Below, piece by piece: positions 43,220-58,449 of a stretch of DNA of 64,000 bases. The stretch is from an uncultured Caulobacterales bacterium (GTDB lineage: Bacteria > Pseudomonadota > Alphaproteobacteria > Caulobacterales > Maricaulaceae), in contig CALLIK010000007.1 in assembly GCA_938009235.1 (NCBI GenBank), positions 558,001 through 622,000 of the forward strand. Direction: 5' to 3'. The position numbers and the translations under genes were made by a program. Numbering within the stretch: the stretch's first letter is position 1; each line of letters starts with the position of its first letter. The notes beneath the pieces are model-generated. The model was not told where the DNA came from, made no database searches, and worked only from the letters and a program-made list of their open reading frames with translations.

Positions 43220-43294
43220 GGGCGATTAGCTCAGTGGGAGAGCACTACATTGACATTGTAGGGGTCACTGGTTCAATCCCAGTATCGCCCACCA
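43220..43294 (+). tRNA. tRNA-Val (GAC)
   Basis: The acceptor stem GGGCGAT pairs with ATCGCCC, followed by A and an encoded CCA. The D arm is GCTC..GAGC. The anticodon stem is CTACA/TGTAG around TTGACAT, anticodon GAC. The T arm is ACTGG TTCAATC CCAGT. All four arms are intact. Its 3' half from 43247 to 43294 is the attachment site of the downstream island. Confidence 0.96.
43247..43294 (+). repeat. attL: left attachment repeat within tRNA-Val
   Basis: A 48-base perfect direct repeat shared with 50919-50966. It begins at ACATTGACATTG of the anticodon arm and runs through the CCA end. The intact tRNA is therefore restored by the incoming element's left end. Confidence 0.95.
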
Positions 43295-43597
43295 TCCTGA
43301 CTTACATTTAGTTTAACGATAACAACACGTTAGACTAAATGTGTCTATTTTTCAAGTTCTTAGTGAAGTGCTGAGCGAAGGGCTTAAGTGCTATGTAAGT
43401 GCAAAAGCGTATTTTGAAGAAATTCTTAATAGTAATTGCCGCTTAGCTGTATTCACTAAGAAAACCATCTCTAAAGGCTTTGTTACAGAAATATGTGATT
43501 TTGTTGATCCAAGTTTGTACGGTTGTTATTCTGCTGCACCCTCCTCTGGATAGCTTCAGGCGTTGATATCAAGCGCTAGGGTGACTACTTAGAGTGG
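43295..43597. other. Left-end noncoding region of the island with probable integrase arm sites
   Basis: No convincing gene. It holds TAAGTGCTA and TAAGTGCAA eleven bases apart at 43383-43405. The same pair (TAAGTGCAA twice) lies at 50771-50793 just upstream of the integrase gene. One helical turn of spacing and presence at both ends fits binding sites for the integrase's N-terminal domain. A 70-codon frame over this region has no ribosome site and is doubtful. Confidence 0.6.
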
Positions 43598-44083
43598 ATG
43601 ACAAGTCCAGCTGAAGAACTTCGTACCATAAAACGTTTATGGGCAGGAAATAGGTGTAAAACCATTGAGCTTGCAGCTGATTCCTCAATACGGGTTTACT
43701 GTGATAAAGTTGGTGGTAATTGTGATCGCTGGGTATTCATTATGGAGGAGGGTAATGAAGATGTTGTCGCTATTGCGTCTCTGACTCATTGGGAGGACTT
43801 TGAAAATTTACCGTGTTTGCATCTCGGTTACGCGGTTGTCCCAGATAGCCAAGGAAAGGGGTATGGCGAAAAAATGGCTAGGTTAGCTATATCTAGTATA
43901 GAGACATTCCTCAATAATAAAGGGATAACCAACTGGTATGTTTCCGCTTTAGTAGGTGTAGAAAACATTAAATCTCACGTTATAGCTAGGAAGGTTTTTG
44001 GTGAGCATATTAATCGTTCCGTCGACCCTGTTACAAAAATAGAAAACTTAGTGTTTAGGCAAGAGTATAAATCCCCAACTTAA
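43598..44083 (+). CDS. GNAT family N-acetyltransferase
   Basis: 161 residues. The acetyl-CoA loop is LGYAVVPDSQGKGYGEKMARLAI (motif split: VVPDSQGKGYGEKM), with beta-strand FIMEEGNEDVVAIASLTHW before it and a C-terminal VENIKSHVIARKVFG that matches the family's motif B. The substrate is unknown; small acetyltransferases on islands often modify antibiotics or toxins. The ATG at 43598 lacks a strong ribosome site. Confidence 0.82.
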   Translation: MTSPAEELRTIKRLWAGNRCKTIELAADSSIRVYCDKVGGNCDRWVFIMEEGNEDVVAIASLTHWEDFENLPCLHLGYAVVPDSQGKGYGEKMARLAISSIETFLNNKGITNWYVSALVGVENIKSHVIARKVFGEHINRSVDPVTKIENLVFRQEYKSPT

Positions 44084-44401
44084 AGCTAACGTCTATATCC
44101 AAACAACCATCAAAGGTAGAGGCTTGTGACACAAGCCATTAAAAGAATGCAGTCTACTTAATTTGTCAAAATTAGATTATATTAAGTAAAAACTGAAGAG
44201 CTTGAAATCTTATTAAGTCACAGTCACTTTTACTGTGGGCTTAACTTCAACTGGGACTTCGATTATTAGTGAAGGGTACCACGAATTATTATGAGCACTT
44301 AATGCATTCTATCAAACAGTGTTAGCCTGCATGTTTTCAAAAATTATAAATTTATATTTATACCCATACTTATATCGACATTTTATTTTAATTGAATTTA
44401 A
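44084..44401. other. A/T-rich noncoding stretch, nothing recognised
   Basis: About 320 bases, A/T-rich, with no credible frame on either strand and no strong hairpin. It separates the acetyltransferase from the transposase remnant. Confidence 0.5.
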
Positions 44402-44454
44402 GACTCGTAAGGAGTTGTTTTCGTTTTTCTGGTGTCATTGGTCCAAAAAATGAG
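44402..44454 (+). repeat. Left copy of a roughly 53-bp direct repeat flanking the transposase remnant
   Basis: Begins GACTCGT and contains CGTTTTTCTGGTGT and CAAAAAAT. The second copy at 44918-44970 aligns without gaps at about four bases in five. It probably marks the ends of the decayed insertion or an internal duplication. Confidence 0.6.
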
Positions 44455-44519
44455 TTTTGACTCTGTGTGACTCTCCTAGAGTTCTCTTGGTTGCCTCAAG
44501 CAAAGATGTGCATGGGGGT

Positions 44520-44911
44520 AAGTAGCCTAAGCACTACATCAACATTATGGCATGTTCTTACTTGGCGCACTGTCATGCAGTCGTCCAAGATTGGCCTACA
44601 GAAGTGGGTTATCGCGATGTACCTAATGTTCACAAACCTCAAAGGCTTGTCTAGCATGAAGTTACACCGCGACCTTGGCCGTCACTCAAAAGATAGCATG
44701 GTTTATGGCGCAGAAAATCCGTGAAGGTTGGAACGACGGCCAAGACGGCGACAATCTAGAAGGCATTGTTGAAGTCGATGGGACTTATATCGGCGGTAAG
44801 TCTAAGAATATGCACGTGAAAAATCGCAAGGCCCGCAAACAGTATTCAAATAAGGGAACTGTTGTCGGTATGATTGAACGCGATGGTGAAATACGCGTGG
44901 CTCATAATTGA
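44520..44911 (+). pseudogene. Broken IS1595 (ISXO2-like) transposase remnant
   Basis: The upstream frame (44467-44724) reads KIGLQKWVIAMYLMFTNLKGLSSMKLHRDLG, like the IS1595 N-terminal helix region before the LGV..KTAWFM segment. The sequence then continues in another frame from 44675 as VTQKIAWFMAQKIREG, EVDGTYIGGKSKNMH and GTVVGMIERDG, then stops. The DDE domain is cut after the first catalytic Asp region and the gene is frameshifted, so it cannot make an active transposase. Confidence 0.78.
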
Positions 44912-44917
44912 ATGAAA

Positions 44918-44970
44918 GACTCGTACAGAGTCTTTCTCGTTTTTCTGGTGTAATCGGTTCAAAAAATTAC
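44918..44970 (+). repeat. Right copy of the roughly 53-bp direct repeat
   Basis: Begins GACTCGTACAGAG and ends near CAAAAAATTAC. Partner of 44402-44454. Confidence 0.6.
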
Positions 44971-45173
44971 CACTGGCTCTATGCGAGTATCTAATAGCCT
45001 TATAGGGCGATTCAAGCGGCAAGTTGAGCAAGATTATTCTATGAGCATAATTGGGGGCCGTTTATCGAGTTAAACTACAGGTTATAAATAAAAATGAGTA
45101 ATGTTTGAGTCTATTTATACCCGCTAATATGCAGGCTATGATGTTGAAAAAATTGAATAGTTTTGCAATTTCT

Positions 45174-45370
45174 CTGAGTAACATCTACTATATAAAACCT
45201 ATTTCAGGTCTTCTTCTTATTATTTTTCTTATATATAGATAAAAGAAAAAAAAGAGCTAAAGAAATTACGCAAAGGTAAATGTTACTCAGCGTAAAGGGT
45301 AAATAATATATACACTTCAATTACTTAACTGCTGTTTAGGGGGGTATAAAAGAGGCAAAATGTTACTCAG
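45174..45370. repeat. Three copies of ATGTTACTCAG upstream of the Cys-rich gene
   Basis: ATGTTACTCAG occurs directly at 45280-45290 and 45360-45370, both followed by a CGTAA within a few bases, and inverted at 45174-45184. The surrounding gap (44971-45480) is very A/T-rich with no trusted frame. Eleven-base repeats 80 bases apart suggest an operator or iteron-like site controlling the following gene. Confidence 0.6.
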
Positions 45371-45480
45371 GGCGTAACCTTTTGCAGTTTGTGGCCACTG
45401 GGAGAAGAGCAAGCCGAAATCACTTGCGATAGATATAATAAAAGGCTTTGAGGGGATATTAAAGTGGAAGGTCTCATATA

Positions 45481-45996
45481 GTGTCCAATCAAGCTTGGCA
45501 TAAGTACAGACAGAGATGGGCCGATGCAGGTAACCCTCTAACGGGGTGGGAATATGTTGATATCGAAGATATGCAGCCAGAGCGCGAAGTATGTTCGTTT
45601 TGTCCTAAATTGCTGCGGTATGTGCACATCATAAAGCATTTCGAGCAAAACTTAACCGAACGCGTTGGGTGTATTTGTTGCGGTCGTCTTACGGGGGATG
45701 AAGAGGGAGCAAAAAAACGTCAAGATAGCAAGAAACACCAGAATATTAGAAAAAGTAATTTCCTAAAAAATGGATGGTGCGAAACTGAAACGTCCGATGG
45801 TCTACTTTGGACTCTTTCGGCGAGGAAAGCTGAATGTAAAATCTTTATGCACGCTGTGGGGAATTATACGGCAAAGATATGCCCAAAGAACTTAGAAAAA
45901 AATGTTCCGCTAATAACCATCGACAATGACACCTATTGTGTCTTTTTGAAGGAAATGCAGGATCAAGTGTTTGAAAAGTATGACATGCTCAAGTGA
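45481..45996 (+). CDS. Cys-rich putative zinc-binding protein
   Basis: 171 residues from a GTG. Two cysteine clusters, CSFCPKLLRYVHIIKH (about residues 38-53) and VGCICCGRLTGD (about 60-71), form a likely zinc site. A Lys-rich stretch (KKRQDSKKHQNIRKSNFLKNGW) follows, then a beta-rich C-terminus. I do not recognise a family. It is convergent with the ABC ATPase module, ending about 20 bases from it, and lies downstream of the ATGTTACTCAG repeats. A DNA- or RNA-binding island protein is plausible. Confidence 0.68.
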   Translation: MSNQAWHKYRQRWADAGNPLTGWEYVDIEDMQPEREVCSFCPKLLRYVHIIKHFEQNLTERVGCICCGRLTGDEEGAKKRQDSKKHQNIRKSNFLKNGWCETETSDGLLWTLSARKAECKIFMHAVGNYTAKICPKNLEKNVPLITIDNDTYCVFLKEMQDQVFEKYDMLK

Positions 45997-46017
45997 TTTT
46001 CATGATGCTATTTGCAT

Positions 46018-48072
46018 TTATAGAGTCTGGAGAATGTAATTGTCGAATTGAAGAATGTGTGCCTCTCCTCGAGCAACCCCAGCTTTCACTTTTGGCAGCT
46101 CTTCGGATGTAGTCACAATGATTTGTCTGTTTGTGGGAGTATTCGACGCGGCCCAACCAAGGAAGCTCATAAGGTCAATATCTTTCATTTCTTGTTGGCC
46201 AGGCTCGTCAAATATAGAAAAGCCAATATTGTTAACATCATGACTCTCGGATAGTTCCAATAATCCTAAATAGTAAGCCCACTTTAATCGAATGCCGTCG
46301 CTTGCAGACGCCTCGAAGCCAATGTCTTTCTCTACTGCCTCGCCTTTTTTATTGGTTGTAAAAACTTGGGGACGAAAATTATCATCTGACAGATTTATCT
46401 CGTCAGGTTTGAATGAGCTAAAAGAAAACAATTTCAGTAAGTTTTGTATATTTCTTTGGTATTTAGATATTTTAAGCTTGTCTGAAGGAGAAAGTTGACC
46501 ACTGCCCAACTTTTTCATTCGGCTAGTTTCAATTGCCCATTTTTTCGAAATTGTTTGAAGTTCATCGACCCTAGAATCCAAACCCTCCTGAAGAACATGC
46601 CAGCGTTCAAGTTTTGACTGCTTCTGCACGATATTCTGAATAGTAGAACGATGTTTACTGGTTTCGGACCTAGTTAAATCATTCTTGATGTTACGTATTT
46701 GACTCCGTTGAACCCTGATGTCCTCGTTTAGAGACCTATATTTTATTCGAGTATCATTTAGCGTTTTCTCTGTAATTTCTTTTATAGATTTATACAAATC
46801 AAGTTGAGATCGTACAAAGGCAATGTTTTCATCAATTGCCATACCCTTCTTTGTAGTCTCCGGAAGTAACTCCCGTGAAACCCCTTGGTGACAAGTTGGG
46901 CATGAGCTGTCGCTTGCAGACGAACCAAGGGCGGAGCCAAGAGATTGTAATTTCTTAGCATCTAAGTTTCTTTTTAGATCAAGCTCAAGAAGTGATATTT
47001 GTTGAATGACCGAGTTGTGCTCAGTAGTATTAAGATGAAATTCATTTCTCAGGAAATTTATTTTAACCGATGTAGTGTCAAGCTTCTCCTGCGTTTCTAT
47101 TAGTTGATCTTGGAGTAATTTTGCAGCCTCACCTACGTTGACCAATTCCACTCTATCCAAAATGTTGATATCATTTTTCACAAGTTCTTTTGCCGTTTCG
47201 AAGGGTTGCCAATCGTCTTCATGATAAAGAAAAGTGTTTAATTCAACGCTTTTAGAAAACTCTGTATTCGGTTTAATAGGAAGGCCTTCAAACCTCATTA
47301 AACTTCCCGCTTCTGAAATTAAGAGTTTTCGGTGCAAACTCCATTCGGCCTCTAGAGATTTAATGCGTTTTTTTATCTCCGACCTGTCTCTTCTAACTTT
47401 TCCTGCGTCTAAGTTGAGTATAAACTCCATAACTCTCCTCGACATGTCTTGAATGCCGATAAATGTAGGAAAGGGTCCTTGGATTGTTGACCAACCGCTT
47501 TTTTGTTCAACAAAAAACATCGGGAATAAGGTCTCTAGGTAAAGAGGGCACTCCGATCCATCATATTTGGGTACAGCGGGAAGTTCCCATCCGATGAAGT
47601 CAGCGAGGAATGTATGGAACCCTTTCTCTCGTGTAGCTGAGCCAGCGTCTGATAGGAAGAAGTCTCTTTGTTCAAATGCCTTTGACCCATCAGTTAACTT
47701 TCCACCGTACCACACTTGGACCAACTTTTTTTCTTTGCCCCCAGCAATGTCCCTCCGAATTGTAACAACTGAGCCAGAGGAGTTTTCGATCTCTAGCATC
47801 GCATAGGATTGCAAGACGTACTCATAATCCTCAACTCCCCCGTGCTTCTTGTGAGCTATTCTTTCTTTCATCGCTAACGGCAAAGGAACATCAAGTTTTG
47901 GACCCAGAGATCGTTCCATTCCCAAACAGTAAACTATTGACTGAACGCAAGTTGATTTACCTGAACTATTGTCTGCTTGTATTATATTTAGGCCATTCTT
48001 TAGGTTTAAATCAGCTCCAAACGTGTTAGTTGAAGTTAACGAACGTAGGCGGATGGCGCGAATAGTAATCAT
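46018..48072 (-). CDS. SMC/Rad50-like ABC ATPase of a putative three-component conflict system
   Basis: 684 residues. The N-terminal half-ATPase begins MITIRAIRLRSLTSTN and has Walker A NSSGKST at 35-41. Long coiled-coil stretches follow (about 220-385 and 405-530) around a central CPTCHQG near residue 392, a hook-like position although only one CxxC is present. The C-terminal half holds the signature region (SASDGIRLKWAYYLGLLEL) and Walker B FSIFDEPGQQE near 624, then VTTSEELPK as the switch histidine-less region. The length is typical of ABC-3C-type ATPases. The start overlaps the middle gene's stop as ATGA. It probably senses or clamps DNA and controls the nuclease-like partner. Confidence 0.85.
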   Translation of the reverse strand: MITIRAIRLRSLTSTNTFGADLNLKNGLNIIQADNSSGKSTCVQSIVYCLGMERSLGPKLDVPLPLAMKERIAHKKHGGVEDYEYVLQSYAMLEIENSSGSVVTIRRDIAGGKEKKLVQVWYGGKLTDGSKAFEQRDFFLSDAGSATREKGFHTFLADFIGWELPAVPKYDGSECPLYLETLFPMFFVEQKSGWSTIQGPFPTFIGIQDMSRRVMEFILNLDAGKVRRDRSEIKKRIKSLEAEWSLHRKLLISEAGSLMRFEGLPIKPNTEFSKSVELNTFLYHEDDWQPFETAKELVKNDINILDRVELVNVGEAAKLLQDQLIETQEKLDTTSVKINFLRNEFHLNTTEHNSVIQQISLLELDLKRNLDAKKLQSLGSALGSSASDSSCPTCHQGVSRELLPETTKKGMAIDENIAFVRSQLDLYKSIKEITEKTLNDTRIKYRSLNEDIRVQRSQIRNIKNDLTRSETSKHRSTIQNIVQKQSKLERWHVLQEGLDSRVDELQTISKKWAIETSRMKKLGSGQLSPSDKLKISKYQRNIQNLLKLFSFSSFKPDEINLSDDNFRPQVFTTNKKGEAVEKDIGFEASASDGIRLKWAYYLGLLELSESHDVNNIGFSIFDEPGQQEMKDIDLMSFLGWAASNTPTNRQIIVTTSEELPKVKAGVARGEAHILQFDNYILQTL

Positions 48073-48545
48073 AATAATTTGTGCCCTGCGGTCACTACTT
48101 GTTTGACAAATGTTTCTGTTACAGCAGATGAGACATTATCTAGAAAATGCTTTTCGGTAATTAAAACATCAGTTGCTTCAAGAATTTTCTCTGCCGCAGA
48201 AACTCCTTTTTCAGTTAACTGCAAGGTTGCCCGATTTGAACTTACAAGCCATTTTGCAAGGTCTTCCCCAACTAAAAAGTCTAAGTTTCTACTAAAAGCG
48301 GGCTCAACTCGCATGCGCCAATCGCTAAACGGAATGCTTTTGCTTATTAATTCAAATAGTTTCGCGCGGGAATGGGTGGAACGGATTGCGTCATTTAGCA
48401 AATGTAGTTTTGCCAAAGAGCATTTATTGCCTCTAGATCGATAAAGTATAAGTATTGTGGTGCTAAGTCTCCAAGCGATACGCATATCACCAGAAACAGG
48501 TTTTGGACGAGCCACAAAAGAAAATCGTTGATTTGTCATAGTCAT
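48069..48545 (-). CDS. Small middle component of the ABC module
   Basis: 158 residues, mostly helical with a winged-helix-like look: RIAWRLSTTILILYRSRGNKCSLAKLHLLNDAIRS, then LVGEDLAKWLVSSNRATLQLTEKGVSAAEKI, whose LTEKG resembles a wing/HTH end. Proteins like this occur as the middle component between effector and ATPase in ABC three-component systems. That assignment is from context and general form, not from a motif. It is coupled to the ATPase by a four-base overlap and follows the effector gene by 12 bases. Confidence 0.72.
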   Translation of the reverse strand: MTMTNQRFSFVARPKPVSGDMRIAWRLSTTILILYRSRGNKCSLAKLHLLNDAIRSTHSRAKLFELISKSIPFSDWRMRVEPAFSRNLDFLVGEDLAKWLVSSNRATLQLTEKGVSAAEKILEATDVLITEKHFLDNVSSAVTETFVKQVVTAGHKLL

Positions 48546-48557
48546 TCTACGAACCCC

Positions 48558-49469
48558 TTAGACAAAATCTAATGGGCAACGTATGAGCCAATCACTCAAA
48601 GTTCCTTGAGAAATTGCCTGTATTGTGGGGTTACCTAAGCTTGGGAGATGAGTTTTCAGTTGCTGTTCTACGCGAACTAAGCTTTTTTGAAGCTGATCTT
48701 GAGGTGCACCAGTTAAGCCGACCATTCCCAAAAGATCCTCTTCTGAGTTTATACTATTCTCTGAAATTTCCCATAAATCAGGAAAGCTATCCCTCAACTG
48801 CGCTAGAGTTGTTTGCCTTTTTAGCCAAGCTTTTACATGGAGAAGTTTTCGACGATTAATCTGATCGGCTCCCTCATCAGGAAACGCCTTTTTAAGTTTA
48901 GTTTGTAGTCGATCGTCTATGAGATTTCCCTTTAAGGAAATTTCTTCATCTGTCGGGGGGGCGATTTTTAACGGTATCCCAATGGATTCAAGTTTTAATT
49001 TTTCTAGTTCAGAGCTAAAGTCATCTTGACTGTGTATTAGTCCATGAAAAGTAGGTGCTACAAAGTCTAAATCTAGTATATTTAATTTGTCCACTTGTGT
49101 CTGTATGAACCTTACTACGTCTTTATTATCGACAAACGGGCATAGAAGTATCCATCTATCTATCTTTACGGTACCTAATAATTTTGAAATTGTGTCTTTG
49201 TATTTAATTAGCTTCTTTAAATCTGAAGTGACCTTCCTCTTCTGTGCTTTTGAGGACTTTGCGACATCAACAGCTTCTCTCGGAGCAAAACTCTGATAGA
49301 GGCAGCCGCCCATTGTGTAGTACTCTACCCCGCAATCACCATTTACGGAATCAGGAATAGACTGGACGTTGGTTGGCCCATGGCGGAGCTGAACAAGCTT
49401 TTTAGCAAACTTTTCCCATTCTTTACCGTCCCACCCCCGTTGATGCATTTTATCCTCGTGCTCAAACAT
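48558..49469 (-). CDS. Putative effector of the ABC module, nuclease-like N-terminal domain
   Basis: 303 residues. The N-terminus GWDGKEWEKFAKKLVQLRHG... then GDCGVEYYTMGGCLYQSFAP resembles the core of Mrr/PD-(D/E)xK restriction-type domains, which commonly read GDxGID...YQxK. Here the position after Q is S/F, so a normal catalytic lysine is not obvious. The C-terminal 120 residues (LQTKLKKAFPDEGADQINRRKLLHVKAWLKRQ and a leucine-rich tail) may contact the middle component. First gene of the three-gene module, downstream of the integrase on the same strand. Confidence 0.7.
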   Translation of the reverse strand: MFEHEDKMHQRGWDGKEWEKFAKKLVQLRHGPTNVQSIPDSVNGDCGVEYYTMGGCLYQSFAPREAVDVAKSSKAQKRKVTSDLKKLIKYKDTISKLLGTVKIDRWILLCPFVDNKDVVRFIQTQVDKLNILDLDFVAPTFHGLIHSQDDFSSELEKLKLESIGIPLKIAPPTDEEISLKGNLIDDRLQTKLKKAFPDEGADQINRRKLLHVKAWLKRQTTLAQLRDSFPDLWEISENSINSEEDLLGMVGLTGAPQDQLQKSLVRVEQQLKTHLPSLGNPTIQAISQGTLSDWLIRCPLDFV

Positions 49470-49541
49470 AATACCTGTTTGAGTTGCGCTTTTGAGCCGC
49501 AGTTGTCAATGAAACTCCGACGCGGAAACAATATGGAATTG

Positions 49542-50756
49542 TCATTCCAACAATAAAGATACAGCGTCTGCCTTGTGACGTGCCGATAAGTGGGCGTAGC
49601 GGATCGTCATCGTATGACTTGAATGCCCAAGTAGCTCTCTTACCGTGTTTAGTGGTGCTCCCTTAATTACCAGTTTTGAAGCAAAATGGTGTCGGATATC
49701 ATGCCAACGAAAGTCATGTATCTCTGCGTCAAGCAGCAAACGTTTCCAAGCGGTTTTGACATCTTTGAATGGGCCACCTGTGTAGCTTAGGAACACATAG
49801 GAACCCTCTTTTCGTATTTGTTTTTTCCAGCTTGATAATACTGAGTAGGCTTCATTGTTAAGGGGTATGTGACGAGTTTTTCGACTTTTGGCATTTGTGC
49901 CTTCTATAGTAAGTTGCCTGCGTTCAAAATCAATATTATGCCACTTCAACGAAAATAGTTCACCGCGCCTAATCCCTGTGTTCATGGCCACCAATACCAT
50001 GGGTTTTAAGTGATCTACGAAGACGTTGGTATCGAGGTCCCTCAATAGGGTTTTACTTCGAGCATTACGCCACTGGTTTCCATTTCGTCTTTGGTTTCGA
50101 AGGTGGTTTTCACGTTTATCAAGAGCAGAGCGAAGCCGAATCTCTTCTGGACCTGATAGAAAACGGATCTTCAGGTTAGAATTAGTTTTCATTGGTTTCA
50201 TCTTCCTGAGTGGATGTTCAGGGATGAAGTCCCATTCCTCTGCTTTTGTGAGCGAGGCACGCAGCGTTGCATAGCTCCTATTCGCTGTGTGAGGTGATAG
50301 GCCAGATACAACTTTTGCAATTCGCCATTTCTCAACAGTCTGCGGGGTAATATCTTCCATTCGCATTTTCAAAAACGGGGCGCAATCAACCAACAAACAA
50401 CGCTTCGTTGCTGCAGATGCGTTATGGTTAGCCTCTACCCATTCGAAGTAATGTTCTTCAAGAAATTTTCGATATGTCGTGATCTCTTTGTCTTTTTTCA
50501 CATCGAGGATAGGCTCGCCACCTTGGTAGTATCTTGCAAGGATTTGTTGGGCCAAAATTCTCGCAAGTTTAACAGAATACGCGCTCTCAGGTCCGATTTT
50601 GATCCGTCCACCACGCCGATACTCGCAATAATACGTCATTTTGCCAGTTGGTTGGACCCTGATTAGAAAGCCTACAAGTTTTCTGTCCCGTATCTCATAA
50701 GGTTTAAGTTTAGGCTTTGCTCTGTCGATTACAGCCTGTGTGATTGTCACTTTCAT
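49542..50756 (-). CDS. int: Tyrosine recombinase (phage-type integrase)
   Basis: 404 residues with the P4-like layout: an N-terminal DUF4102-like arm-binding part (KPYEIRDRKLVGFLIRVQPTGKMTYYCEYRRGG), a core-binding SAM-like domain, and a catalytic domain with Arg in NTGIRRGELF, HDIRHHFAS, LGHSSHTMTIRYAHL giving the R-H-x-x-R-H-Y set. It lies 160 bases from attR, transcribed inward, as usual for tRNA islands. Its paired TAAGTGCAA sites lie just upstream of its start, which could also let it repress itself. Confidence 0.95.
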   Translation of the reverse strand: MKVTITQAVIDRAKPKLKPYEIRDRKLVGFLIRVQPTGKMTYYCEYRRGGRIKIGPESAYSVKLARILAQQILARYYQGGEPILDVKKDKEITTYRKFLEEHYFEWVEANHNASAATKRCLLVDCAPFLKMRMEDITPQTVEKWRIAKVVSGLSPHTANRSYATLRASLTKAEEWDFIPEHPLRKMKPMKTNSNLKIRFLSGPEEIRLRSALDKRENHLRNQRRNGNQWRNARSKTLLRDLDTNVFVDHLKPMVLVAMNTGIRRGELFSLKWHNIDFERRQLTIEGTNAKSRKTRHIPLNNEAYSVLSSWKKQIRKEGSYVFLSYTGGPFKDVKTAWKRLLLDAEIHDFRWHDIRHHFASKLVIKGAPLNTVRELLGHSSHTMTIRYAHLSARHKADAVSLLLE

Positions 50757-50770
50757 GGCTACATTACTTT

Positions 50771-50793
50771 CTTAAGTGCAATGTAAGTGCAAA
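50771..50793 (+). promoter_or_regulatory. Right-end paired TAAGTGCAA repeats, probable integrase arm site
   Basis: TAAGTGCAA occurs twice eleven bases apart between the integrase start and attR, in the same orientation as the matching pair at 43383-43405. The 23-base strings differ at one position. Confidence 0.6.
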
Positions 50794-50918
50794 TTGGTGG
50801 AATTTATGCCGAGGGCGTGAGAATGGCTAAAAAGTACAAGTCCCAGAAACAGTAACGTATTCAGGAACGTAGACCTGAATTTCGACTGTGACTGTAACTG
50901 GCTGTTTGGCTTAGCCTC

Positions 50919-50966
50919 ACATTGACATTGTAGGGGTCACTGGTTCAATCCCAGTATCGCCCACCA
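50919..50966 (+). repeat. attR: right attachment repeat (tRNA-Val 3' half)
   Basis: The 48-base perfect copy of 43247-43294. It lacks the acceptor 5' strand and D arm, so it is not a working tRNA. Confidence 0.95.
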
Positions 50967-51147: not shown

Positions 51148-52050
51148 ATGAAGCGACCTAAGTCGGCACATAAGAATGCCATTAAGAAATTACTGGCACC
51201 TGAATCTTTATTGGATTTATTAGAGGCCGCAAAAAAATGCCCTTTAACTCCTGAAGGTAATTTAGAGTTCGCAGCATACCAGAACAGCGTGTTTGAGCGT
51301 ATATTCCCTGGGTTCACCTATCAGTTTTGTTCGACGTGCCAAATTAACCTTTCAGGTGAGGGGGCGCTTTCCAATCTGACGAGTGTAGACTGGAACCTAC
51401 CCGAAGCTTGTATGCAGAGTTATCTTGAGAACGCTCATTTAGATGACCTGTCACCCATCGTATATGCAAACCCTGGTCGAGCGTTAAATTACACCTATGT
51501 ATGTCCACAAGAACTGATTGATAAGCATCCATTATTTATCGCTCATAGCCACAAGTTTGACATTCATCATGTGATCTCAGTTGGGTTTTTACATCCTGGA
51601 CATCTGAACACATTTCTTTCCTTCGATTATATGGGGAATAAGGCGAATAAGAATTGGGTTTCATTCAATCATATGAAGGTTGAACTCGCCTCATTTCCTT
51701 TCGCTTTAGCGTGGTTTTATAGATCCGGTGTCTTTGATGAGCCTACCTTGCGTAAAATATTCCTTCTATTGGAAGGATTGACTGAGAGTCGATTGTCAAA
51801 CCTTCGCAAATACATAAATGCCCCCATGCAAAGTTATGAGGATCAGGCGGCCGCACTCGGTATTAGAGCCAGTACGTTGAAAGAAGATCTCGCACTGATT
51901 CGTAATGGGACAATGTATAAGTTGGGGCTTAAAACAGCTCCAAACCGAAACACGCCAACACGTTTATTGGACCAACATTTTGGATTTTTGCAAATGTTAG
52001 GTGATCATACGACGGATTTAGTTGGTATCACGATACCTGAAAATTCTTAA
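51148..52050 (+). CDS. LuxR-type sensor-like protein with divergent C-terminal helix-turn-helix
   Basis: 300 residues. The N-terminal region has the autoinducer-binding-domain look: a W..PEACMQSYLENAHLDDLSPIVY block that places the conserved Trp and Asp-Pro-like pair, then SVGFLHPGHLNTFLSFDY. The C-terminus MQSYEDQAAALGIRASTLKEDLALIRNGTMYKLGL resembles a LuxR HTH (IA..LGIS..TVKxHL..I..KLG) but departs at many positions. So it may be a LuxR solo that no longer binds a usual site. It is convergent with the SET-domain gene (nine bases between stops) and may control the peptide locus. The homology call is moderate. Confidence 0.55.
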   Translation: MKRPKSAHKNAIKKLLAPESLLDLLEAAKKCPLTPEGNLEFAAYQNSVFERIFPGFTYQFCSTCQINLSGEGALSNLTSVDWNLPEACMQSYLENAHLDDLSPIVYANPGRALNYTYVCPQELIDKHPLFIAHSHKFDIHHVISVGFLHPGHLNTFLSFDYMGNKANKNWVSFNHMKVELASFPFALAWFYRSGVFDEPTLRKIFLLLEGLTESRLSNLRKYINAPMQSYEDQAAALGIRASTLKEDLALIRNGTMYKLGLKTAPNRNTPTRLLDQHFGFLQMLGDHTTDLVGITIPENS

Positions 52051-52059
52051 CCATAACAT

Positions 52060-53736
52060 TTATGGTGGTTCGAACAGCCATTCAGACACCATATTTTTTG
52101 ATTGATATTCAGCCTTCATAGTTGACGGCAAACTATCATAGTTTTGAACGATTTTTGTGCAGTGACGACTCCCGCAAAGGCAGTTTTGTAAAACCCATGT
52201 AGAGTTCTCTGTGCATCTGTAATCCCAAGTCAACTGCTCGCCCACTTCAATATCCCGGGTTGTAAAAATTTCAGTTAAGTTTCGAATGCCGCAATTCGGT
52301 TCACAGGAATGGCATAAGCAGTGGGCTAAGCCACGGTATCCGAACACATAGGATTGCGGCCCAACTTGAACAGCGTGATCGCGCATTTCATATGGTAATG
52401 CTAAAGCGTGTTCAGCTTCATATTTTTCACCTTCGAAGACTGCAATGCATTCGCCGGCTTGAATTCTTTCTGTCGCGAAAACGGCTAGCCCCATGGCTCC
52501 GTTTTCTCTGACAGAAATTTTTGTATTGTCCGTACTTGAGGATACGAAATGCTGATCGGCTAATTGCCTCTCTGCCCTTGATGTGTGCCGTAGGGTATAA
52601 GTCCAATGTGACTTGTCCGCTAGAAATGGGAAAAGAGCTGCTGACGTTTTTTGACAGAAAACGAGAGGATGCGAGTTTTTGAGACACCCAAAGACAAGCC
52701 TGTCTGTAAACGCTGTATTCAATATATGTGCAGTGCCTTCGGCTGGTATTTCGCACAGGAGAGGCAAACTAGCATGTATGGGACTGATACAAAGCGCCAT
52801 AGATTTCATCATCTTGTAAAATATGTCTCCGCCGCGCGCACTGGGTGAAATGATTTGTGCGGAAATCGTCATAACTGGCGTTTGTGGTTCTAGCCCGAAG
52901 TGAAATTTCATTTTCTTGAAAAAATGGTCGGGTTGATCTAGTAAATCTGGGCAATCTAATTCACTAAATATAAGTGGGTTATACCACTCTTCACTGTAAA
53001 ACAGACGTTCCAATTTCGCCATGCGTGAATGTAAAAGACCAACGATAGCGAATGTTGTCGTATCTCGTACTAACGTCACATAACCAGGGTCCTGTAATCT
53101 GTCATACATCAAGTTTCGACATGTCGTTTTGTCTGTCCATTGATGAAAACCAGGGGGTAGCTCAATGTCGTCAACAGACATTGTTTGGAGCTTAATTTGC
53201 GCATCAGTAAGGGCGAATGAGATTAGGCGTTCTTGTTCTAGAAGTCTTTCCGCATCGTTTGGATTATCTAGGCATCGAGACCATTCAATAAACTTTAAGC
53301 TCGCAGGTAGAGGTCGAAGTGGATCATCCTCATGGAAAGCAAAGTGGTAGTAAGGTGCTGCGCAAAATCCAGATCGAAAATAGTCGGCTATTTCATTAGA
53401 AACTTCTCTAGAGAGTGATTTTGAGGTGAAGGTTTTTATTTCAAATAGTTCAACCGAAAGGTTTGATTTAGCTATCACATCAACAAAGCCTCCAGTTTCA
53501 AAATCAATACCGATTACCACTGAACCTGCTTTATAAGCAGACGTCAGATTGGATATTATGTCTTTGGTGTAAGTCATACCGGGCATGATTTCTGGAATCC
53601 CTGGAGGGTATAAGCGAATTGTTGATGTCGCTACACGGCCTACAGCTGCGTTGATTTTAATACGTTCTGTGGGGGCAACATAAGCCTCCCAAACGTTTAA
53701 AACTTCTGATTGGTTCGAAGACGCTAAGATGGGCAT
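52060..53736 (-). CDS. Fusion: Orn/Lys/Arg decarboxylase C-terminal domain, acyltransferase-like segment and SET methyltransferase
   Basis: 558 residues. Residues about 25-60 read RVATSTIRLYPPGIPEIMPGMTYTKDII, the hallmark YPPGIPxxMPG of the C-terminal domain of Orn/Lys/Arg decarboxylases. Residues about 205-370 look like a GNAT acyltransferase (LVRDTTTFAIVGLLHS, ISAQIISPSARGGDIFYKMM). Residues about 405-540 are a SET domain: GLAVFATERIQAGECIAVFEG, YRGLAHCLCHSCEPNCGIRNL, IEVGEQLTWDYRC, and post-SET CLCGSRHC for zinc. The start abuts the upstream gene's stop with no gap (TAAATG). The decarboxylase catalytic half is that upstream gene, so the enzyme is split, with its C-terminal part fused to a transferase and a lysine methyltransferase. 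I know no such fusion. Confidence 0.75.
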   Translation of the reverse strand: MPILASSNQSEVLNVWEAYVAPTERIKINAAVGRVATSTIRLYPPGIPEIMPGMTYTKDIISNLTSAYKAGSVVIGIDFETGGFVDVIAKSNLSVELFEIKTFTSKSLSREVSNEIADYFRSGFCAAPYYHFAFHEDDPLRPLPASLKFIEWSRCLDNPNDAERLLEQERLISFALTDAQIKLQTMSVDDIELPPGFHQWTDKTTCRNLMYDRLQDPGYVTLVRDTTTFAIVGLLHSRMAKLERLFYSEEWYNPLIFSELDCPDLLDQPDHFFKKMKFHFGLEPQTPVMTISAQIISPSARGGDIFYKMMKSMALCISPIHASLPLLCEIPAEGTAHILNTAFTDRLVFGCLKNSHPLVFCQKTSAALFPFLADKSHWTYTLRHTSRAERQLADQHFVSSSTDNTKISVRENGAMGLAVFATERIQAGECIAVFEGEKYEAEHALALPYEMRDHAVQVGPQSYVFGYRGLAHCLCHSCEPNCGIRNLTEIFTTRDIEVGEQLTWDYRCTENSTWVLQNCLCGSRHCTKIVQNYDSLPSTMKAEYQSKNMVSEWLFEPP

Positions 53737-54972
53737 TTAAGATACCTTTCTACTATCAAGTGTCATCTGGAGGGAGTCACGTAAGGAGGATATGGTTTGA
53801 TTGATCTGAGGCTTGTGAGTTGGAGATGCGCAGAGGAGAAGTAATGTTGTCACCGTGGCTTTTTCGACATCAAGGTCAAAATGTTGAGACAAATACTGAG
53901 CCCAAACCCGGGCATCTACAGACTTTAAATTAGACGTACTTATCAAAATATGAGCAGGGTCCAAACTTTCCGCACCAACATGTTCCGGCCGTACAGCATA
54001 AATATCAGGATGAATTTCTGGAATTCGTTCAGATAGGTTTTGCGCCGCTTCGTCGGCTTGCGAGAACGCTAAATTCCATTCGCCGTTCAAGGTTTTATTG
54101 AGCCGATGCTCTGAAATCATTATGTCAACAAATGAAATACTTGAAGATCGAAATCCGAGGTCAAGGGCTTCGTCCCAGATGCCAGCTATATGTTTATTGT
54201 TTGTGATCATGCAGCCTAAACTAGAGGGAAGTAACCCGCGTTTATGAGGGCTGGTGAGCCAAGCATCACAAAGTGGCAGTAAGGACTGACCATTGTTTGT
54301 CTCAGCCCTAAATGTTGTCGCGTCCCAAGCTCCATCAATGAAAAGTAATATGCCTTGTGATTTCGCATATTTATAAATTTTCATTTCTTCAGATTTAGAT
54401 CGAAATCCATCATAGGAAGGTAAGACTAGAAAAATTGCGGCAACGTTCTGGGCGCCATGTTTCTCTACTAGAGATATTATAGCCGAACATTCAATTGGAT
54501 GTGTGGTGCCATGGTTAGGATTAGGTACCCTTGGAATACGAACAGCCTGCCATCTACCGAAAACTAATCCACCAATTGTACTTTGATGACAGTTTTGATC
54601 GAATAAGATGAGTTTTCTAGTTGTTTGCAACTTCGGCAGAACGGCGGTCAAAAGTATCAATATTGCCCCAGATGACCCTCCGAAAGAGAGGCAGGCATAT
54701 GATGATTTGTATAGTTTTGCGAGCTTATGATTTACGGCCTGTGCCGGACCTTGTCCAAGTGCGGTAGGTAAATTAAAATGCCTGTTTGAAATTGAATGCT
54801 CGGCGTAATCCCATAACTTTGAATAGAGCTCTGAGAAATGATGTGCATAAGCTTCAATGTGTTTGGGCCGAAAGACACCGACCCATAGTAGTTTAAAAGT
54901 ACGTTGAAAAAGAATCAAAGTGAATAGTGCAGCTTGTTTCCTTTGTATTTTGTCTACCCCTTTCAGCTTCAT
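53737..54972 (-). CDS. PLP-dependent Orn/Lys/Arg-decarboxylase-like catalytic protein
   Basis: 411 residues of fold-type I PLP enzyme. The sequence shows FGGSSGAILILLTAV (phosphate-binding start), LFDQNCHQSTIGGL (a stacking His region), FIDGAWDATTF (the Asp that contacts the pyridine nitrogen, about 211) and the Schiff-base lysine in SPHKRGLLPSSLG at about residue 244. This is the large domain of an Orn/Lys/Arg decarboxylase lacking the wing and C-terminal domains; the latter is found in the next gene. I chose the ATG at 54972, which overlaps the stop of the 40-codon peptide as ATGA; an earlier TTG at 55008 would extend into it. Substrate may be an amino acid or a peptide residue. Confidence 0.82.
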   Translation of the reverse strand: MKLKGVDKIQRKQAALFTLILFQRTFKLLWVGVFRPKHIEAYAHHFSELYSKLWDYAEHSISNRHFNLPTALGQGPAQAVNHKLAKLYKSSYACLSFGGSSGAILILLTAVLPKLQTTRKLILFDQNCHQSTIGGLVFGRWQAVRIPRVPNPNHGTTHPIECSAIISLVEKHGAQNVAAIFLVLPSYDGFRSKSEEMKIYKYAKSQGILLFIDGAWDATTFRAETNNGQSLLPLCDAWLTSPHKRGLLPSSLGCMITNNKHIAGIWDEALDLGFRSSSISFVDIMISEHRLNKTLNGEWNLAFSQADEAAQNLSERIPEIHPDIYAVRPEHVGAESLDPAHILISTSNLKSVDARVWAQYLSQHFDLDVEKATVTTLLLLCASPTHKPQINQTISSLRDSLQMTLDSRKVS

Positions 54973-55091
54973 GATTTGGATTTCGAAGCTATTTTGACTG
55001 GGGTGCAAAAGCTAAGGCGAGGCTTAACGAAGAGAGACCTCACGATCACAGATGTAATGGACGTATTTGCAGTGGATGTTGGGGTAGTCAT
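54969..55091 (-). CDS. 40-residue peptide coupled to the PLP enzyme
   Basis: An unmarked short gene. The ATG at 55089-55091 has a strong AGGAG ribosome site six bases upstream, and the TGA overlaps the ATG of the PLP enzyme as ATGA. The peptide is Ser/Thr-rich at its start (MTTPTSTANTSITS), has a short hydrophobic-basic middle (VIVRSLFVKPRLSF), one cysteine (FCTP) and a tail VKIASKSKS with four lysines or serines alternating. Strong ribosome site, exact coupling and the modifying enzymes next door suggest a substrate or signal peptide; that is an inference. It could instead be a leader that only helps translate the next gene. Confidence 0.65.
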   Translation of the reverse strand: MTTPTSTANTSITSVIVRSLFVKPRLSFCTPVKIASKSKS

Positions 55092-55189: not shown

Positions 55190-57859
55190 TTATTGTTGTG
55201 TTTTGAGGGTATTGTTTTTGAAATTCATGTAAGATCTCTCTATATTAGAAGGTAAATAGTGACCTTTTGGAGTATTCCCTTGCTTACAGTCTTCTAACAT
55301 TGACTCGGGAATTTGATTAAACTCGGCTTCCATATCGACAAATGTGCAGTGTCTAAAATTAGCTGCATGCGATGCATTTTGAAACGACGTAAAATTAAAC
55401 CGACTATTTACAAATATACAGCGGTCAAAAATCACACCACTCATATTCACCAAACTAAAATCAACATCAGTGAAGTGACACTGAGCAAACTGAGTATCTT
55501 TAATTCTTGTGTCGAAAAAATTCACTTTTCTTAGACTTGAGAATTGAAACAAACAATCTCGGTATATGTTGCCTAGCAGTTCGGTCATGTACCAGGCCGT
55601 ATGTTGAAAAAAAGATCGTTTGAAAACGGAGGACATGATCCTGATATGATTCCAGCTCGTCATGGCGAAGTTGGTTTCGTCACATATTGTATTCTCAATA
55701 TACCCCGTGTTAAAACTTAACCTACTCATATCAGCCGACGTCAAATGAATTGCTGATAATGAATGAGCTAAGAAGTTAGGCACGTAGAGTGGAGCGTCTG
55801 TTAGGGTCTCCATGCCAGAACTCATTGCAGTAGACAATTGGATGCGCCTTAAGTCTGCTGGGCCAAACGTTCCTTCTGTATCTGAAAATAAAAATGAAAC
55901 ATTTTCTCGCTTATATCGCTCAACGTTTAAGGCGGACCAAATTAGAAAAATAAAACTCCCTGCAGACTTAATTTGGTCAATGAAATCAGGTAAGTTTTTT
56001 GTTGATCCATTAAACTCATTTGAAAGAAACGGTTCTTTTAAAAGCGTCAGGGCCGCGTTCCAATCTAGTTTAATGAGGCTGTCATATCTCAGGGCCGCTT
56101 CGTTTTGACAGAAAGTGGCTAGGCTGGATTCTTGTGGCCCTGTTTGACATAATGTTATCCAATGGAAGATAGCTTCATTGAAATTATCTTGACTGTTAAA
56201 GGCTGTAATTAACGTAACGAAGGCATCCAAAAATAGCGTTGAGAGAACATACTCAACTATTGATTGGTGCGTAAAGCCAAGTGTGATGCCATTCTTTTTT
56301 TTGCCTATGTGGTGGTTGAAGCCTGCTGACTTTCTTTCAGGAAACGCTGCATGTAACGTTACATACGAAGACATTAGAGATCTAATTTCTTGTCGTGTTT
56401 TGTTGTCTTGTATGTACGCTTTGATCTGAATCGGAGTTAAGTTTTTTTGCCCGCCATTATGCCAACTCGCCAAAGAAATACATTGAAGTAAGTGCGTTGA
56501 GATTGGGTTCTCTAAATTAATAGTTTCTGATGCACTTCCGTTCAAGATATCTTGCTGTTTAAGGTGCTTTAAAATTTTTCTGTAGATTGAGTTTATGTTT
56601 TTTTCGTAAGTGATCTGATCTACAATTTCGTTTGCAGGGCGTATGGATCGATCCGGCGGATCTTCGGAAAATGCAGTCCTGCAAATCATGTGGGCTAGCA
56701 AAGGTTCTGCACCAAATTCTGAAAATTCATTATACTCGGCACACAAAAATTCAGGAAGATTAGTACAAGGTGCTAATTTTTTGGCAGAAATGTAATTGCT
56801 CCACCATTGTGCTCGAAGGTCGCGTCCTACTTGGTCAACAGCTTGAGTGTTAGACAGTTTCACCTGTCCATCCATTGCGACCATCCTCAATACTTTCACC
56901 TTAGAGTGTTGCTGAGAAACTTTGTTGGTGATTTCAGCGCGACCTAAAAGGATTGCACGAAGAGTTTTGCCGTGAAGACTGCAAATTTCTTGTTCGGATT
57001 TGAGGCGGGAAAAAAGTTCGTCCCGTTTTAAATGGGAAGTCTCATCGCTCACGCTAATCTCATCTATTCCGTCTAATATAACGCAAGCTGTTGAATATGA
57101 AGATGCCCTGAAGTGGAGTAGAAAGGAGTCGAGGGAAAAGGCGTCTGTCACATGTTGTGTTGGGTCAGTAATATCAATGCTAATAGATGAGAGCTTAGTG
57201 GCTCTCATGTAAATTGAGAAAATGTCTGATGTAGAGAGTCTATTCGCCAAATGTAGAGCCAGTATTGATTTGCCGGAGCCCGGACCACCATTAATAAATG
57301 TCCAGTCTACATTTTCCTCTCCTCGCCATCCAGTTTCTGCAAAACTTTCTAAGTCTTGCGGCTCATAAAGAACGCACGCGTTTGGATGTTCTTCTATCAG
57401 CTGCAGTGGAACGTAGATATCACCAACAGAAAAGGACTCCCCCATAATGTATCGGGAATATTCTGTTTGTATCCAATCTGCATGCTGTCGATAGATTTGA
57501 TCTGAAATGGTTGAAGGTGCAGGAACATTGTTGTTTGATATAAGGACCTGCTTGGGACGGGCGGCTTGATGCGCCCAAACAGTCTCAAATGCGACGACCC
57601 ATTGATCTGCAATATCGGTCTCAAAGAGGCCTTCAATAAGTTTAAAAAAAGAAGCCGTGTAACGTGTAGGGATAACGTTTTTATTTTTCCATTTGTTTAC
57701 AGTAACGGTGCTTATACTTTTCCCACGTGCGTAATTTTGAAACTCGAGACTGAAGGACTCTTCAGTCCATCGTCCAATTTGAAAAAAGAAACGAAACAAT
57801 TCTGAGGGCCTGAATGTTTCATATGCCTTTGGAGGCGGAATGCTAATTTTCTGGTTCAA
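55190..57859 (-). CDS. NACHT-type STAND NTPase with N-terminal HTH and C-terminal pentapeptide-like repeats
   Basis: 889 residues from a TTG with AGGAC six bases upstream. The N-terminus (EFQNYARGKSISTVTVNKWKNKNVIPTRYTASFFKLIEGL, split) resembles a Cro/CI-type HTH. Walker A is GGPGSGKS near 190 and Walker B VILDGIDEI near 263, the DGxDE form typical of NACHT. A helical middle follows with LLAHMICR and FTHQSIVEYVLSTLF, the latter like the NACHT-associated helix. From about 680 the sequence becomes pentapeptide-like (LTSADMSRLSFN, LRKVNFFDTR, DVDFSLVNMSG). Bacterial NACHT proteins act in antiphage defence and as regulators. No separate effector domain is evident apart from the HTH. Confidence 0.85.
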   Translation of the reverse strand: MNQKISIPPPKAYETFRPSELFRFFFQIGRWTEESFSLEFQNYARGKSISTVTVNKWKNKNVIPTRYTASFFKLIEGLFETDIADQWVVAFETVWAHQAARPKQVLISNNNVPAPSTISDQIYRQHADWIQTEYSRYIMGESFSVGDIYVPLQLIEEHPNACVLYEPQDLESFAETGWRGEENVDWTFINGGPGSGKSILALHLANRLSTSDIFSIYMRATKLSSISIDITDPTQHVTDAFSLDSFLLHFRASSYSTACVILDGIDEISVSDETSHLKRDELFSRLKSEQEICSLHGKTLRAILLGRAEITNKVSQQHSKVKVLRMVAMDGQVKLSNTQAVDQVGRDLRAQWWSNYISAKKLAPCTNLPEFLCAEYNEFSEFGAEPLLAHMICRTAFSEDPPDRSIRPANEIVDQITYEKNINSIYRKILKHLKQQDILNGSASETINLENPISTHLLQCISLASWHNGGQKNLTPIQIKAYIQDNKTRQEIRSLMSSYVTLHAAFPERKSAGFNHHIGKKKNGITLGFTHQSIVEYVLSTLFLDAFVTLITAFNSQDNFNEAIFHWITLCQTGPQESSLATFCQNEAALRYDSLIKLDWNAALTLLKEPFLSNEFNGSTKNLPDFIDQIKSAGSFIFLIWSALNVERYKRENVSFLFSDTEGTFGPADLRRIQLSTAMSSGMETLTDAPLYVPNFLAHSLSAIHLTSADMSRLSFNTGYIENTICDETNFAMTSWNHIRIMSSVFKRSFFQHTAWYMTELLGNIYRDCLFQFSSLRKVNFFDTRIKDTQFAQCHFTDVDFSLVNMSGVIFDRCIFVNSRFNFTSFQNASHAANFRHCTFVDMEAEFNQIPESMLEDCKQGNTPKGHYLPSNIERSYMNFKNNTLKTQQ

Positions 57860-58449
57860 TCTTTCGTCCTAATGTCCGCTAGAAAGCGGTCGGTTTCAGG
57901 TCTGTTAACCAACCCTGCGATAGTAGGGTTCACACTTCATTCCTTTTCAATATACTAAATCAATATTCAGTTCGGTGCTGAGAATCTACATCTAAAGATA
58001 TCTTATTTTACGGATTTTTACCCAAATTTCCTACATAAACTAAGGGTTGTAGGTTTTCAGACGTCGTAATGATGAAAATTCATAATGTGATTTGTAAGGT
58101 ACCTTGCAGTTTACATGTTGGTGATTGCGCTTGTATCGCGCTCCCACGTAAAGTGCCGTACCATCCGGCCTGGCGTGCATGGGTGATCACCCTAAGCGGC
58201 TTAAATGTTTTGAGTCGGCTAAGTTTGAATTTTCTCTGTATGAATAGAAATGCAGGCCTCAGTGTTTCAGTGTCGAACTGATATATTTGAGGCCTGTAAC
58301 TTTCAAATTCAAAATGTCTTTTCCAAGATTTAAGACGTTTAAAATATGGCTTTATGGTGTTGCCTGAAAGTCAAAGTGTTATCACTTTATATCAAAGCAA
58401 ACCGAGTCCTAAGGTTGTTGCTGAGCCCTAGATCACCTAAGTCTATGTC
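57860..58449. other. Divergent intergenic region with palindromes
   Basis: About 590 bases between the NACHT gene and the 618-residue secreted-protein gene. It contains the perfect palindrome GGGTGATCACCC at 58181-58192 and a nested hairpin at 58253-58296 (CAGGCCTCA facing TGAGGCCTG, with TCAGT facing ACTGA inside). A 70-codon frame at 58069 has no good ribosome site and I do not call it. The hairpin is not followed by a T-run. Confidence 0.5.

Follow-up and report, generated by a model that had tools for sequence, protein, structure and literature searches.

A coupled gene row for a divided Orn/Lys/Arg-type decarboxylase and a GNAT-like/SET fusion protein in Caulobacterales: a candidate biosynthesis and sensing cassette

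Introduction

The window analysed here, a stretch of 64,000 nucleotides from an uncultured Caulobacterales bacterium (contig CALLIK010000007.1, positions 558,001 to 622,000), carries on its minus strand one coupled row of three genes that encode a 40-amino-acid peptide, a pyridoxal phosphate (PLP)-dependent enzyme and a fusion protein with a decarboxylase C-terminal domain, a GNAT-like region and a SET domain. The question raised by this locus is what such a set of enzymes acts on, the peptide encoded beside them or a small molecule. The initial annotation suggested that they might decarboxylate, acylate and methylate the peptide, or make a modified polyamine or peptide signal. In the literature searched, no description of this combination of decarboxylase, GNAT, SET and peptide was found.

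Our results show that the row is real, rare in the sequence searched and kept as a unit in the genus of the window. A regulator gene, a gene for a STAND-type ATPase and an 18-bp dyad accompany it, all three missing from the initial annotation. The row most likely represents a small-molecule pathway with its own sensor rather than a peptide modification system. Of the outputs first suggested, a modified polyamine or a signal is upheld as possible; the proposal that the peptide is the substrate is not supported. As a best account, which we put forward tentatively, the genes would form a biosynthesis-and-sensing cassette in which a decarboxylase/acyltransferase/methyltransferase complex makes a modified amine that is sensed by a LuxR-like protein.

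Results and Discussion

An Orn/Lys/Arg-type decarboxylase divided over adjacent genes

An AGGAG site precedes the peptide gene (54969–55091). The TGA stop codon of this gene and the ATG start codon of the PLP gene (53737–54972, 411 amino acids) overlap as ATGA, and the TAA of the PLP gene directly abuts the ATG of the fusion gene (52060–53736, 558 amino acids). This arrangement had been noted in the initial annotation and was found unchanged when the window sequence was read again. Pfam matches were accepted when they exceeded the curated cut-offs, which was the case for OKR_DC_1 in the PLP protein (E 1.8e-7) and for OKR_DC_1_C (residues 22–83, 53488–53673, E 5.6e-7) and SET (residues 416–506, 52219–52491, E 1.2e-10) in the fusion protein. 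The matches bear out the proposal of a split decarboxylase with its C-terminal domain on the fusion, as well as the earlier assignment of the SET domain; the third domain that had been claimed, the GNAT-like region (residues 95–398, 52543–53454), is without a Pfam family and is predicted by fold only.

When the PLP core was aligned with CadA, AdiA and L036, a homologue from another genus, hhalign gave 98.1% (E 1e-13). H129, D213, W216 and K244 of the PLP protein aligned with CadA H245, D330, W333 and K367, which we take to be active-site residues with K367 as the PLP lysine, and all four are invariant in 6/6 PLP sequences. Of the features of an Orn/Lys/Arg decarboxylase, the core family match, the active-site residues and the C-terminal domain are present, the last on the fusion protein. 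The window enzyme resembles CadA and AdiA in the families of its core and C-terminal domain and in the four aligned PLP-site residues, and the peptide shows some resemblance to CadA 135–155. Unlike these enzymes it would be made as three chains, and its C-terminal domain is on another enzyme. Moreover, the 411-amino-acid protein is without the wing domain and has an extra hydrophobic stretch near its N-terminus in 5/6 sequences. The 19-residue mean hydropathy of this stretch is 1.5–1.9 in these five and 0.5 in L038, a divergent homologue in which OKR_DC_1 gave no Pfam match at E 0.1; possibly the stretch makes contact with the membrane. That the pieces of the decarboxylase lie in adjacent coupled genes supports the cassette proposed below.

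The row is rare and kept as a unit

A profile of the GNAT region was built from eight sequences and run on 137 genomes of the family. It matched ten of them, 8 of the 18 from the genus of the window plus G198 and G331, which belong to two other genera. No further genome was found among 385 sampled from the class or 398 sampled from the phylum, where the window's own genome alone matched, and there was no confirmed match in the viral contigs sampled. A pattern scan of the genome collection returned four relatives, three of them uncultured Caulobacterales bacteria and one a member of the Gracilibacteria (G721), the only match among 332 genomes sampled from its phylum. Among 99 family genomes, a relative of the PLP protein was present in all five that carry GNAT-SET; the sole other match, in G178, was weak (E 5.6e-6) and by eye represents another family.

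The gene order is the same in 8/8 genus loci, with the STAND gene followed by the peptide, PLP and fusion genes and then by the convergent regulator gene. In the window the STAND gene (55190–57859, minus strand) is the first gene of the row and encodes 889 amino acids with NPHP3_N and C-terminal pentapeptide repeats (both over the Pfam cut-offs), and the regulator gene (51148–52050, plus strand) encodes 300 amino acids. The initial annotation had proposed searching genomes for co-occurrence of the two enzymes and for a short gene at the PLP start. All three genes occur together in 8/8 genus loci, and no genus locus with the enzymes was without a conserved peptide gene.

The genus loci occupy one fixed site (8/8), flanked by a HEAT-repeat gene on one side and a response-regulator gene on the other. 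Eight regions from genus genomes without the system were compared and one of them, in G098 (L093), showed both flanks, about 310 bp apart and with the block absent between them, as expected of an empty site; the other seven lacked both flanks together and are therefore uninformative either way. Identity to the window across the other seven genus loci was 35–50% for the STAND protein, 51–69% for the PLP protein, 51–67% for the fusion protein and 62–77% for the regulator. The idea that the block changes faster than its flanks failed for the HEAT-repeat gene, which is 42–53% identical to that of the window across the same loci, and holds only against the response regulator (92–96% identical to that of locus L002) and the XRE, hisN and ApbC genes.

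The divergent forms, found in the two other genera and the Gracilibacteria genome, are organized differently. In G331 (L038) a peptide-like open reading frame (ORF), a PLP gene, an OKR_C-GNAT gene and a SET gene are all separate. A gene for a NACHT protein of 1072 amino acids (L038:3606–6824) diverges from this PLP gene, giving a second pairing of the pathway with a STAND-type ATPase, and the NACHT protein gave no tblastn match to the window STAND protein at E 1e-4. In G198 (L025) the GNAT and SET genes stand with the convergent regulator gene and an aldehyde dehydrogenase gene just upstream, and the gene for an OKR decarboxylase that includes its C-terminal domain (L036) is found at a distance of about 128 kb, preceded by its own peptide of the same family. 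In the Gracilibacteria locus (L005) GNAT-SET directly follows an Orn_Arg_deC_N decarboxylase of the Orn/DAP/Arg family (DAP, diaminopimelate), which has a fold unlike OKR and whose best solved relatives are lysine/ornithine decarboxylases. The link of GNAT-SET to decarboxylation thus arose with two unrelated enzymes. The pairing with decarboxylases of two unrelated folds is our strongest evidence that decarboxylation is part of the job of GNAT-SET.

The peptide is probably a detached arm of the decarboxylase

The peptide gene was found in 8/8 genus loci and in two divergent copies (L036 and L038), and the ten sequences align with I16, R25, C29 and P31 invariant after the start; the conservation sits in the C-terminal half. 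Between the window and L053 the 21-codon core of the peptide differs by 13 synonymous codon changes and no amino-acid change. Across the genus the synonymous sites are saturated, and the core is under purifying selection. We considered whether the short ORF could do no more than govern PLP gene translation, by coupling or as an attenuator, as short upstream ORFs are common and the genus loci overlap at an ATGA or GTGA. This is unlikely, given that the amino-acid sequence itself is under selection and that the peptide is still recognisable in L036 and L038. At the peptide/PLP junction there is a longer overlap in L038, and in L036 the stop and the ATG are separated by one base. Because the junction differs in this way between loci, a programmed frameshift that fuses the peptide to the PLP protein is not favoured.

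Three observations lead us to read the peptide as a detached arm: its position, its staying with the decarboxylase in G198 and its resemblance to the arm of CadA. The best matching segment in E. coli CadA is residues 135–155 (ALFKYVREGKYTFCTPGHMGG), just before the core domain; 0.23 matches with so high a score are expected by chance per protein of that length. AdiA was without such a resemblance, and a profile search of the PDB did not recover it. No such peptide was seen in the Gracilibacteria locus, which is without an OKR decarboxylase, by eye or by a strict motif scan that misses the divergent copies too. On this sequence evidence, the peptide is probably the detached N-terminal arm of the decarboxylase rather than its substrate.

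The model of the initial annotation, in which the peptide is decarboxylated, acylated and methylated in the manner of a ribosomally synthesized and post-translationally modified peptide (RiPP), has in its favour that the peptide is conserved, is coupled to the enzyme genes and has an invariant Cys and Pro. We nevertheless regard it as quite improbable. In G198 the peptide goes with the decarboxylase and not with GNAT-SET, the conserved half is C-terminal, which is the reverse of the usual leader/core arrangement, and at the PLP site the four aligned residues match enzymes that decarboxylate free amino acids; the resemblance to the CadA arm also speaks against a substrate. Nor does the peptide show the linkage to modifying enzymes, or the conserved leader and variable core, by which RiPP precursors are recognised.

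The GNAT-like region and the SET domain

An AlphaFold model of the fusion protein (5 sequences, mean pLDDT 49, a per-residue confidence score) showed the GNAT order of strands and helices. The 50 Foldseek matches listed for this model were mostly acetyltransferases (best E 3e-4), and among them LasI had the highest TM-score (template modelling score, 0.53 by target length). The LuxI-synthase family PF00765 gave no Pfam match in the GNAT region and none in the window's genome.

In a single-sequence search of the PDB the best match of the fusion protein was BurB (E 1.6e-7). Methylation of free methionine by BurB yields the compound that BurI decarboxylates (PMC12542666, PMC7496086). This pair is similar to the window system in that a SET enzyme goes together with a PLP-dependent decarboxylase for cationic amino acids; it differs in that the window SET domain lies outside the BurB clade, a GNAT-like domain is added and the decarboxylase is of the OKR type. 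The SET domain may still use a free amino acid in a reaction like that of BurB. However, a BurB orthologue it is not: the system SET domains are 29–36% identical to the BurB fragment and score about equally against MLL1, which ranks above BurB when a profile is used (1.9e-11 vs 1.9e-10). Five genomes of the same order (L011, L012, L014, L015 and L021) hold proteins that are 56–62% identical to the BurB fragment and are likely true BurB relatives. In the SET tree the 11 system sequences separated from 6 BurB sequences (100/100) when only these two groups were compared, although two ungrouped sequences may fall within them and the deeper branch points are weakly supported. As the system sequences fall outside the BurB clade, we do not call the domain a BurB.

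A special case of the cassette would work like BurB-BurI, as a sulfonium pathway in which the SET domain makes S-methylmethionine, the decarboxylase converts it to the amine of dimethylsulfoniopropionate (DMSP), and the GNAT-like domain acylates the DMSP-amine or further enzymes convert it to DMSP. Besides the BurB match and the BurB-BurI precedent, the aldehyde dehydrogenase gene in G198 and the family of the Gracilibacteria partner are consistent with such a route. According to PMC11464771, the plant candidate closest to BurI and SMMDC is a DAP decarboxylase, and S-methylmethionine is decarboxylated by an ornithine decarboxylase homologue from a plant. The distance of the SET domains from BurB, the about equally good scores of MLL1 and the position of the Gracilibacteria decarboxylase nearest to lysine/ornithine decarboxylases speak against it, and we hold this special case to be rather unlikely, though not negligible.

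The regulator and the dyad

The regulator gene is present in 8/8 genus loci and in G198, where it adjoins the GNAT and SET genes though the decarboxylase gene has moved. Four of the 99 family genomes have it, and all four carry GNAT-SET. For the regulator model (pLDDT 44) the Foldseek matches 1–16 were LuxR-type receptors (E 0.18–1.1), and on this fold comparison we call the protein LuxR-like.

The dyad, a putative operator of the row (57912–57929, 18 bp), occurs once per genus locus, 42–55 bp before the start of the STAND ORF (8/8). Three of the copies are perfect palindromes and the others pair at 5–7 of 9 positions. A matrix built from the eight sites gave them scores of 23.9–30.7, while the highest score elsewhere in about 640 kb was 12.8. 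In its closeness to the 20-bp lux box (PMC4444344), the palindrome exceeds 99.6–99.8% of random palindromes with the same half-composition. An exact copy of the perfect palindrome (ACCCGACGATCGTCGGGT) was also seen in one viral contig (L103:588–605).

Compared with LuxI-LuxR systems, the window thus has a predicted GNAT-fold enzyme, a regulator that is LuxR-like by predicted fold and a lux-box-like dyad. It differs in the added decarboxylase and SET domain and in a regulator that lies below profile detection. Furthermore, PF00765 is absent from the eight system-bearing genus genomes and from G198, yet only 1/18 genus genomes has one.

A proposed cassette and its alternatives

The sequences show the order of the genes, their conservation and domains, the alignment of the catalytic residues, the dyad and the presence of the row as a unit. 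From these we infer docking, chemistry, substrate, order of steps, product, the receptor and signal roles, and feedback. An Orn/Lys/Arg-type decarboxylase would be made as separate chains, the 40-amino-acid arm, the 411-amino-acid catalytic core and the C-terminal domain on the fusion protein. If this last domain docks on the core, the GNAT-like and SET domains would be kept next to the decarboxylase. From a cationic amino acid (lysine, ornithine or S-methylmethionine) the complex could then produce an amine that is methylated and N-acylated, and the LuxR-like regulator may sense this product and act on the dyad before the row, giving feedback.

Several results weigh against this account. None of the eight members matched a GNAT family in Pfam, a profile search of the PDB with the GNAT region gave one irrelevant match (E 2.2), and the confidence of both models, of the fusion protein and of the regulator, is low. 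The 16 LuxR matches stem from few proteins (RhlR, SdiA and QscR) with TM-scores of at most 0.25. Neither hhalign against 14 LuxR proteins (14 of 16 loci used, L070 and L077 left out) nor searches with hidden Markov models in both directions supported a LuxR assignment, and the Pfam family Autoind_bind matched 1/6 regulator members at E 0.032, below the cut-off and no better than unrelated families. G331, the fifth GNAT-SET genome among the 99, gave no regulator match, though its contig stops about 510 bases beyond the SET gene. Judged within the window only, the dyad pattern is not significant, with three matches (two of them the dyad site on both strands) and 11/100 shuffles reaching three. 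The lux-box comparison was picked after the site had been seen, the sequence of the dyad did not turn up around the genes of G198, G331 or L005, and the STAND protein could be the dyad binder instead of the regulator.

A still more specific suggestion, which we hold slightly less firmly than the cassette itself, is that the row stands for a new class of bacterial cell-cell signal. The signal would be an amino acid that has been decarboxylated, methylated and acylated, perhaps a sulfonium amine. It would come from a complex in which the three-chain decarboxylase holds the GNAT-SET enzyme by means of its own transplanted C-terminal domain, and a far-diverged receptor of the LuxR type would sense it and control the row through the 18-bp lux-box-like site. 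If true, this would be a LuxR-type circuit whose signal comes from a non-LuxI source, a second route for a SET domain acting on a small molecule, and a case of a decarboxylase cut so that its own domain tethers two further enzymes.

Alternatively, the row could be a module for defence or stress in which the STAND ATPase takes the lead and the enzymes respond by modifying a protein or a small molecule. No other part of the row is as poorly conserved as the STAND protein, the PLP gene of G331 has a NACHT protein gene as its neighbour, and the usual substrate of SET domains is a lysine of proteins. On the other hand, the four large proteins encoded in the block drew a single noise match from PADLOC (E 0.023), the cassette keeps its fixed site in 8/8 genus loci, and the Lamassu genes nearby belong to a separate tRNA-Val island. 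We find such a module hard to credit. As a known defence system the block was rejected, PADLOC recognising the Lamassu genes and not the block.

The tRNA-Val island

The island spans 7.7 kb (43220–50966) between the response regulator and the block, whereas in the other seven genus loci the regulator and the response regulator are close together. It starts with a tRNA-Val gene (43220–43294) whose last 48 nt are repeated exactly at 50919–50966, and it holds Lamassu-like LmuA, LmuB and LmuC genes (46018–49469) and an integrase gene (49542–50756). Two copies of a 113-nt repeat, 72% identical, are also found inside it (44389–45017).

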